From Alphaproteobacteria bacterium (GTDB lineage: Bacteria; Pseudomonadota; Alphaproteobacteria; Micropepsales; Micropepsaceae), in the NCBI GenBank assembly GCA_016792565.1, contig JAEUMK010000058.1, forward strand, positions 1 through 64,000: a stretch of 64,000 nt of DNA, written 5' to 3'. Both the position numbers and the translations under genes were made by a program. Positions 15,218-18,074 of this stretch are shown piece by piece (positions within the stretch are counted from its first letter, which is position 1; every line of letters starts with the position of its first letter). The notes under the pieces are model-generated. The model searched no databases. It was not told the DNA's origin and saw only the letters and a program-made list of their open reading frames with translations.

Positions 15218-15415
15218 ATGCCTGCAACACCGAAGAAGCCGGCCGCCAAGAAGACGGTCGCCAAGAAAGCCCCCGCCAAGAAGGCGCCGGCCAAGAAGGC
15301 CGTCGTGAAGAAGGCGGCTGCGAAGCCTGCGGCCAAGAAAGCGGCGCCGAAGAAGGCCGCCGTGAAGAAAGTCGCCGCCAAGAAGGCGCCGGCGAAGAAG
15401 GCCGCGAAGAAGTAA
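15218..15415 (+). CDS. Histone H1-like Lys/Ala-rich protein (65 aa)
   Basis: The 65-residue product is built almost entirely from AKKAP, AAKKA and KKAV units, about 40 percent Lys and 40 percent Ala, with no acidic residue. Such peptides resemble the C-terminal domain of histone H1 and bacterial H1-like proteins (Hc1/Hc2, AlgP, BpH1), which bind and condense DNA. The start is the ATG at 15218 behind AGGGGAG (15201-15207); the frame stays open to 15062 but the added residues are ordinary and unlike the family. It is followed after 13 bases by a glutathione transferase with a similar arm. The role in nucleoid structure is inferred from composition only. Confidence 0.75.
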
Positions 15416-15428
15416 GCGGGTCGGATTC

Positions 15429-16415
15429 ATGGCCGCGGCGACTTCGCGCAAGACTTCATCGCGCGCAGGCGCCGCGGCCGCCCGTTCCGGATCGCCGGCG
15501 AAAGCGAAAGCCGCTCCGCCGGCGCCCACGAAGGCGAAGCCTCTCTCAGCCAAGCAGGCTTCGACCAAGCCGGCCACAACGAAACCGGTTGCCAAGAAAC
15601 AGGCTTCCGCAAAGCCGGCTTCCGCAAAGCCCGCCGCCGCCAAGGCGGCCGCAGCGAAGGCGCCGCCCGCCAAGGCGGCTCCGAGGCCGGTTCCCGCGCC
15701 GCCCCCCCGTCCCGCCAAGCCGATCGAGTTCTACTACTGGCCGACCGCAAACGGCTGGAAGGTCTCGATCATGCTGGAGGAATGCGGCGTTCCCTATGTC
15801 CTGCGGCCGGTCAATATCGGGCGCGGCGAACAGTTCACCGCCGACTATCTGAAGATCTCCCCGAACGGCCGCATTCCGGCGATCGCCGATCCCGACGGAC
15901 CGGGCGGGAAGGAGATCTCGGTCTTCGAGTCCGGTGCGGTGCTGCAGTATCTCGGGCGCAAGACCGGCAAGTTCTATCCTGCCGACGAGCGCGGCCGCGT
16001 CGCGGTCGACGAGTGGCTGTTCTGGCAGGTGTCCGGCCTGGGACCGATGGCCGGGCAGGCCAATCACTTCCGCCAGTTCGCGCCGGAGACGATCCCCTAT
16101 GCGATCGAGCGCTACACCAACGAGGTGGGGCGGCTCTACAACGTGATGAACAGGCGCCTGGCGGGACGCGACTACCTGGCGGGGCCGTATTCCATCGCCG
16201 ACATCGCCTGCTATGGCTGGATCATGTCGCACCAGCAGCAGGGCCAGAACCTGGCGGCGTTCGTCCATCTCAAGGCGTGGTTCGACCGCGTCGGGGCGCG
16301 GCCTGGCGTGCAGCGGGGCCTCGCCGTCGGCCGCGAGCTGCGCTCGGCGTCGCCCTCGGACCTCAGATCGTCGCAGGATTCGCGGCGGGTTCTGCTGAAC
16401 CAGAAGCCGCGCTAG
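15429..16415 (+). CDS. Glutathione transferase with Lys/Ala/Pro-rich N-terminal arm
   Basis: A 328-residue fusion. Residues 1-97 are a low-complexity basic arm of AKPA, TKPA and AKAA units with Ser and Pro. From residue 98 there is a full YfcG/Ure2-type glutathione transferase: thioredoxin half with [16 protein letters not shown], the cis-proline SPNGRIPAI and the glutathione-contact [10 protein letters not shown], then the all-helical half with [19 protein letters not shown] and [11 protein letters not shown]. YfcG enzymes act as disulfide-bond oxidoreductases with glutathione. The arm would be expected to bind nucleic acid or another polyanion. The gene starts 13 bases after the H1-like gene, so the arm may have come from a copy of it. 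The C-terminal ~25 residues are also basic and unstructured. Confidence 0.88.
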
Positions 16416-16448: not shown

Positions 16449-17162
16449 ATGATCGATCTCTATTCCTGGTGCACGCCGAACGGCCAGAAGGTCTCCATCA
16501 TGCTGGAGGAGGCCGAACTGCCCTACGAGGCGCATGGCGTGAACATCGGCGACGGCGAGCAGTTCTCGGACTTCTTCCGCTCGATCAGCCCGAACGGGCG
16601 CATCCCCGCCATCGTCGATCGCGACGGGCCGGGCGGCGAGCCGATCTCCGTCTTCGAGTCCGGCGCGATCCTGCTCTACCTGGCGGAGAAGTCGGGACGC
16701 TTCCTGCCGTCGGATCCGCGCCGCCGCGTCGCGGCGATGGAGTGGCTGTTCTGGCAGGTGGGCGGGGTCGGCCCGATGTTCGGCCAGGCCAACCATTTCC
16801 GGAACTACGCGACCGCGCGGGTCGGGGCGGAGCATGCCGCCTATGGCGTCGAGCGCTACACCAACGAGGCCAACCGCCTCTTCGCGGTGATGGACGAGCA
16901 GCTCGGCAAGGCCGAGTGGCTGGCCGGGCCGGAGATCACGGTCGCCGACTTCGCGACCTGGCCCTGGATCCTGGGGCGCAGGAATTTCGGCGTCGACATC
17001 GCCCAGTATCCCCATGTCGGGCGCTGGAACGAGGCGATGAAGGTGCGCCCGGCCGTGCGGCGCGGCGTCGATGTCCTGAAGAAGGAGCGCGACGAGGCGG
17101 CGGCCAATCCCGACCGCTGGAGCAACCTGTTCGGCGACAAGCAGTTCCAGCGCCGGAACTGA
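16449..17162 (+). CDS. Glutathione transferase, YfcG/Ure2 type
   Basis: A 237-residue cytosolic glutathione transferase closely related to the preceding gene but without the basic arm. Motifs: [22 protein letters not shown] near residue 4, [17 protein letters not shown] near 50, FESGAILLYLAEKSG near 72, and WLFWQVGGVGPMFGQANHF near 100, all as in E. coli YfcG, a glutathione-dependent disulfide oxidoreductase. ATG start; 33 bases after the arm-bearing paralogue, likely the same transcript. The tandem pair suggests duplication followed by gain or loss of the arm. Confidence 0.93.
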   Translation: MIDLYSWCTPNGQKVSIMLEEAELPYEAHGVNIGDGEQFSDFFRSISPNGRIPAIVDRDGPGGEPISVFESGAILLYLAEKSGRFLPSDPRRRVAAMEWLFWQVGGVGPMFGQANHFRNYATARVGAEHAAYGVERYTNEANRLFAVMDEQLGKAEWLAGPEITVADFATWPWILGRRNFGVDIAQYPHVGRWNEAMKVRPAVRRGVDVLKKERDEAAANPDRWSNLFGDKQFQRRN

Positions 17163-17273: not shown

Positions 17274-18074
17274 ATGGCCGTTTCGCGTCGTACCTTGAGG
17301 CGGATCGCCGCCGCCCTGATGCTGTCCTCGTCGCTGACCTTCGCATCGGTGGCGCTGACCGGACGCGCCGCGGCCGCGAACGAACTGGAGACCTTTTTCT
17401 CGTCCGCCTACACCTATTGCGACGCCAAGCTGGTCGCGAGCCTGTGGAGCATCCCGATCGACGAGGCCAAGGCGACGATCGGGCGGAAGATCCTGAACGG
17501 GATCGGCGACGCGGTGCCGGTCATTCTCCAGGAGGCGCGCCTCGCCTATGCCTGCGAGTGGGCGGACACGCCGCATACCTATAGCGACGCCGAGAAGCTG
17601 GCCGCCCTGTGGGGCCTGCCGGACCCCTATGACGCCAAGCTGAAGGTCGCCAAGCTCTACACCCAGGGGCGCAGCGCCGAAGTGGTCGCGGCGCTCGGCC
17701 AGGCGATGCCGGCGCTCTCGCAGCCCGCGGGCGCGGGCGAAGCCGCCGCCTTCACCGCCTTCGCCGACTCGCCCTACACTTATTGCGACGCCAAGCTGGT
17801 CGCGGGGCTGTGGAGCATCTCGATCGAGCAGGCGAAGGTCGAGATCGGCCAGAAGATCATCAACGGCTATGGCGAAAACGTCCCCGGCCTTTTGGCCGCC
17901 GCGCGCGAGTCGAACGCCTGCGGCTGGGAAGACACCGGCCACAGCTATGAGGATGCGGTGACGCTGGCCGGGATATGGGGCCTGAAGGATCCGTACGACG
18001 CGAAGCTGAAGGTCGCGCAATATTATACGAACGGCGAAAGCGCGATCGTACTCGCGGCACTCGCGCCGCGCTGA
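17274..18074 (+). CDS. Secreted protein with two tandem copies of an unrecognised Cys-pair domain
   Basis: The 266-residue product has a signal peptide (RRTLRR, then a hydrophobic stretch to about residue 30 and cleavage near AAAAN). The mature part is two copies of one ~103-residue unit, at about 38-141 and 160-262. Each has YTYCDAKLVA.LWSI near the start, KI.NG.G..VP in the middle, a second Cys in AC.W.DT.H.Y, and WGL.DPYDAKLKVA near the end. The Cys spacing is 45 residues in both (C49-C94 and C171-C216), which suggests one disulfide per unit. I do not recognise the family. Location should be periplasmic or extracellular. GGAG precedes the ATG by 9 bases; no clear promoter seen. Confidence 0.85.
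   Translation: MAVSRRTLRRIAAALMLSSSLTFASVALTGRAAAANELETFFSSAYTYCDAKLVASLWSIPIDEAKATIGRKILNGIGDAVPVILQEARLAYACEWADTPHTYSDAEKLAALWGLPDPYDAKLKVAKLYTQGRSAEVVAALGQAMPALSQPAGAGEAAAFTAFADSPYTYCDAKLVAGLWSISIEQAKVEIGQKIINGYGENVPGLLAAARESNACGWEDTGHSYEDAVTLAGIWGLKDPYDAKLKVAQYYTNGESAIVLAALAPR

Follow-up and report, generated by a model that had tools for sequence, protein, structure and literature searches.

The gene at positions 17274-18074 (+) of the window, by which we mean the whole analyzed stretch of 64,000 nucleotides, encodes an exported repeat protein, here called X, and the X family co-occurs almost perfectly with an amidoligase of the Amidoligase_2 family (PF12224), the two genes usually being adjacent. 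Since both occur together in the sampled genomes, mostly as neighbors, they very probably work together, and we hold a functional link between them with high confidence.

An exported protein built from ~46-residue repeats

The open reading frame starts with ATG, encodes 266 aa and is a real gene, backed by codon usage and by full-length relatives at ~56% identity in two genomes of the same genus; another full-length relative, from Citromicrobium sp. JLT1363, is 40% identical. Judged by eye, X is probably exported via a Sec signal peptide covering about residues 1-35 (17274-17378, +), with an Arg-rich start, a hydrophobic stretch and an Ala-rich end, and its relatives carry cleavage-like VxAQ or VLA ends, in line with the secretion proposed in the preliminary description of this DNA.

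The same description had seen two copies of a ~103-residue domain, each with two cysteines at 45-residue spacing. The copies are there: unit 1 shares 60% identity with unit 2, and the cysteines at residues 49 and 94 and at residues 171 and 216 keep the 45-residue gap in both. The unit itself has to give way to a smaller element. Within a unit, one half can be aligned with the other ('YTYCDAKLVASLWS...EAKATIGRKILNG' with 'HTYSDAEKLAALWG...DAKLKVAKLYTQG'), HMM-HMM comparison by hhalign gives a probability of 96.7% (E 3.8e-10), and in pairwise comparisons of half against half inside the window protein only 0 or 1 of 2000 shuffles scored as well, with like halves (1A/2A, 1B/2B) ~30 standard deviations above shuffles. 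Because the halves of each unit are homologous, the true repeat of X is a ~46-aa three-helix element in four copies. Their borders, taken from the comparison of halves and from the structure model, are residues 44-89 for 1A (17403-17540, containing Cys49), 99-144 for 1B (17568-17705), 166-211 for 2A (17769-17906, containing Cys171) and 221-266 for 2B (17934-18071), all on the + strand.

From spacing and conservation, Cys94 (17553-17555, +) is the presumed disulfide partner of Cys49, and Cys216 (17919-17921, +) that of Cys171. The earlier proposal of one disulfide per unit stands as far as the cysteine pair is concerned, which is kept 45-46 residues apart in 17 of 17 aligned alphaproteobacterial units, while the bond itself is presumed. 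As a hallmark of the family the pair failed, since it is missing from the member found in a genome of another class (G918), which has three half-repeats ~64-66 residues apart and no cysteines. It follows from this member that the half-repeat is the evolutionary unit and that the disulfide does not define the family; on the sequences compared, the cysteine pair is a trait of its alphaproteobacterial members. The unit tree has few supported branches with which to time the split between units 1 and 2.

Family members contain one to four repeats. Four are present in the window protein and in L026, L007, L008, L021, L022 and L024, and three in L060; the search for single-unit relatives suggested earlier yielded L023 (147 aa) and the still shorter forms L027 and L028 (~120 aa). 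A distant X-like protein of G325 (L025 6422-7183) joins one half-repeat to a different C-terminal region, which matched no family. Among the 21 repeats of our alignment, which leaves out unit 1 of G325 and the L025 protein, a Lys is conserved in all and an Asp in 20; a Tyr and a Trp are conserved as well. The Lys is missing from the two sequences left out.

The predicted model of whole X has a mean pLDDT of 87, and that of a single unit reaches pLDDT 97.4 and pTM 0.85, with three helices per half. The structure prediction that had been proposed thus gave a confident model, and the unit remained as unrecognized as first described: Foldseek searches of the models against the PDB gave no match (criterion E below 0.001), and nothing in Pfam, NCBIfam, PHROGs, PADLOC or the PDB sequences was above a curated cut-off or consistent across members. 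On these models X is an unclassified repeat family, confidently predicted and without a solved-fold match. It resembles Sel1 and TPR proteins in its tandem short alpha-helical repeats and differs from these solenoids in having no Pfam match, three helices per ~46-aa repeat and no solved structure matched by Foldseek. Weak matches to NPM1-C (PF16276) in 2 of 10 family members (best E 4e-4) were rejected as sub-threshold, the L002 match being 25 residues long and scoring 14 bits where the cut-off is 29, and structurally X does not match NPM1-C. Sequence-profile matches to RecA and a Kruppel-like protein in the PDB lacked any passing stretch and were considered chance hits. An origin of X as phage- or plasmid-borne cargo was rejected, because no relatives were found in plasmid, phage and viral-contig collections; the whole-X model likewise had no relative among viral protein models by Foldseek.

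Pairing with an Amidoligase_2 enzyme

The partner gene lies outside the window and scores over the gathering cut-off of PF12224. In a comparison of its subfamily the ExE, HxH and RxR positions are invariant, which is compatible with ATP-dependent amide-bond formation. Profile searches, in which the top candidates per genome were scored in sampled genome sets, covered 401 genomes of the Citromicrobium family. X and the amidoligase turned up in the same five, and the other 396 had neither; the chance of such agreement is 1.2e-11 if genomes are independent, a figure that shared ancestry weakens. Among 96 genomes from the window's order, both occur in the same three, an amidoligase match in G067 (62 profile positions, E 7e-4) being taken as chance, and in a class-wide sample of 385 genomes either gene was found in the window's own genome only.

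Of the 9 carrier genomes, 7 have the two genes side by side. The amidoligase is directly upstream of X on the same strand in G000 (contig C110), G003, G002, G120, G222 and G301, and within one genus the pair occupies two genomic settings; G325 and G381 have both genes at unlinked positions. The single strongest test comes from G918, a genome picked up with the X profile alone: directly after its X gene comes an amidoligase of the same subfamily (E 2.4e-95), in an order reversed relative to the other genomes, and this amidoligase gene is cut by the contig end. Each carrier has one amidoligase and up to three X-type genes. No third gene is found repeatedly next to the pair in the examined flanks, be it a transporter gene or another biosynthetic gene. 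The amidoligase tree has only two well-supported branches.

Two side observations concern the carriers and their kin. A genome of the same family as the window's, G009, lacks the amidoligase and holds a decayed X fragment (L029 7021-7323), which suggests joint loss of the two genes. Genes for secreted-looking pentapeptide-repeat proteins lie next to the G381 amidoligase (L051 7511-9705) and flank the distant X-like gene in G325 on either side (L025 5591-7915); these proteins may be a further associated element.

The window locus is syntenic with that of G002 in the order gatB, GST1, a variable gene, X, Sel1 and enoyl-CoA hydratase (ECH). The variable gene is the amidoligase in G002 and a second glutathione transferase gene (GST2; 16449-17162, +, assigned by Pfam and synteny) in the window, where no trace of an amidoligase was found (best tblastn E 0.96); GST2 is probably not part of the X system. 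The only amidoligase of the window's genome is on contig C110 (L028 6220-7299), beside a short X paralogue and between a TraB/PrgY/gumN gene and ahcY, and the arrangement is the same in G003. The TraB/PrgY/gumN-type gene upstream and ahcY downstream frame the pair in L028 5265-9252 and L027 4859-8916, the former assignment being Pfam-confirmed in L028 only. GST1 (15429-16415; L007 3865-4773) carries a ~90-residue Ala/Lys/Pro-rich, histone-H1-like extension before its GST domain, an extension shared by the G002 relative, and the preceding ORF (15218-15415) encodes a similar Lys/Ala-rich protein with a Pfam HC2 score below cut-off. An ECH gene follows X both in the window and in Citromicrobium-type loci, behind Sel1 in one of them only; the two ECHs differ by eye, and this shared neighbor was taken as coincidence.

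Substrate, carrier or fellow traveler

We hypothesize a two-gene system in which X is the exported component and the amidoligase the cytosolic one. The enzyme would spend ATP to create an amide bond on freshly translated X, and the likeliest sites are the near-invariant Lys or, alternatively, the conserved acidic residues of each ~46-aa repeat. The modified X would then be exported by Sec and, in alphaproteobacteria, would fold in the periplasm as tandem helical domains with one disulfide per repeat pair; in the window's genome the amidoligase would act in trans from the other contig. That X is the protein substrate of the amidoligase is the leading mechanism, to which we give somewhat less than an even chance on sequence grounds. 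It draws on the shared distribution, on adjacency in six genomes and, reversed, in the other-class genome, and on the presence of one amidoligase with several X-type genes, the pattern to be expected if a single enzyme serves several substrates. The repeat-wise conservation of Lys and Asp would offer bond sites. From sequence, an export signal is present on X and none is evident on the amidoligase, which would place the modification ahead of export. Against the substrate reading, the Asp fits a helix-capping box (S/T-x-x-D), and its conservation may therefore be structural; the Lys is absent from G325 unit 1 and the L025 protein, the genes are unlinked in two genomes, and Sec export might be impeded if an internal cross-link had already formed. 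It is rather doubtful, though conceivable, that these genes form an undescribed protein-modification system in which an exported helical-repeat protein without a solved-fold match receives amide bonds from the PF12224 amidoligase, once per ~46-aa repeat and before Sec export, either as Asp/Lys links within the repeat or as a tag consisting of an amine or amino acid.

The main competing explanation has the amidoligase producing a small amide or peptide in the cytosol, such as a gamma-glutamyl conjugate or a modified stem peptide of the cell wall, with the exported X binding, carrying or sensing this product or the modified wall. Such a division of labor, which we regard as possible and appreciably short of even, would explain co-occurrence and adjacency equally, would suit an enzyme and a protein that end up in different compartments, and agrees with X modeled as a confidently folded domain, presumably disulfide-stapled, with conserved Tyr and Trp. 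It is weakened by the lack of a recurring transporter or further biosynthetic gene beside the pair, and a one-pocket carrier would not require one to four repeats per protein.

It is improbable that transfer or shared loss keeps X and the amidoligase together with no direct action of either on the other, e.g., with both as members of a larger pathway. The patchy distribution, the few carriers, the poorly resolved amidoligase tree, the unlinked genes of G325 and G381 and the pentapeptide-repeat proteins near them would fit; however, X and the amidoligase stay together even where unlinked, are paired in two settings within one genus and are adjacent in reversed order in the other class, and no third gene recurs. 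The weakest candidate, that X acts with its window neighbors (GSTs, Sel1, H1-like protein) in an accessory stress cluster, is very improbable: the gene order from gatB to ECH is common to the window and G002, but no relative of these genes was present in the examined flanks of the G003 X or the short forms, and they were unseen beside X in other lineages, so that the neighbors once offered as a clue to function reflect local synteny with one relative, were rejected as partners and leave the amidoligase as the recurrent one.

Relation to known amidoligase and ligase systems

Known partner genes of PF12224 enzymes encode either a glutamine-amidotransferase-like peptidase or a cyclotransferase. 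Gene-neighborhood contexts for Amidoligase_2 were reportedly proposed by Iyer et al. (2009, Mol Biosyst 5:1636). The enzyme described here resembles those neighborhoods in scoring over the PF12224 cut-off and differs from them in being paired with an exported helical-repeat protein; neither a GATase-like peptidase nor a cyclotransferase was seen beside it in the examined flanks, which were inspected by eye and in part checked with Pfam. To our knowledge, PF12224 amidoligases have no established substrate, and literature searches gave nothing to the contrary; X, co-occurring and usually adjacent, is a concrete candidate for the substrate or client of one PF12224 subfamily. Among the papers listed by the literature searches, none described such a pair.

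Graspetide systems consist of an ATP-grasp ligase and a ribosomal precursor (PMC8939145, PMC5934393). We propose a likeness to them in that the gene of an amide-forming ligase neighbors that of a protein containing repeated target units. Unlike in graspetides, the enzyme belongs to PF12224 and not to the ATP-grasp ligases, and in place of a short leader-core peptide the candidate substrate X is a large, apparently exported protein with a confidently predicted fold.
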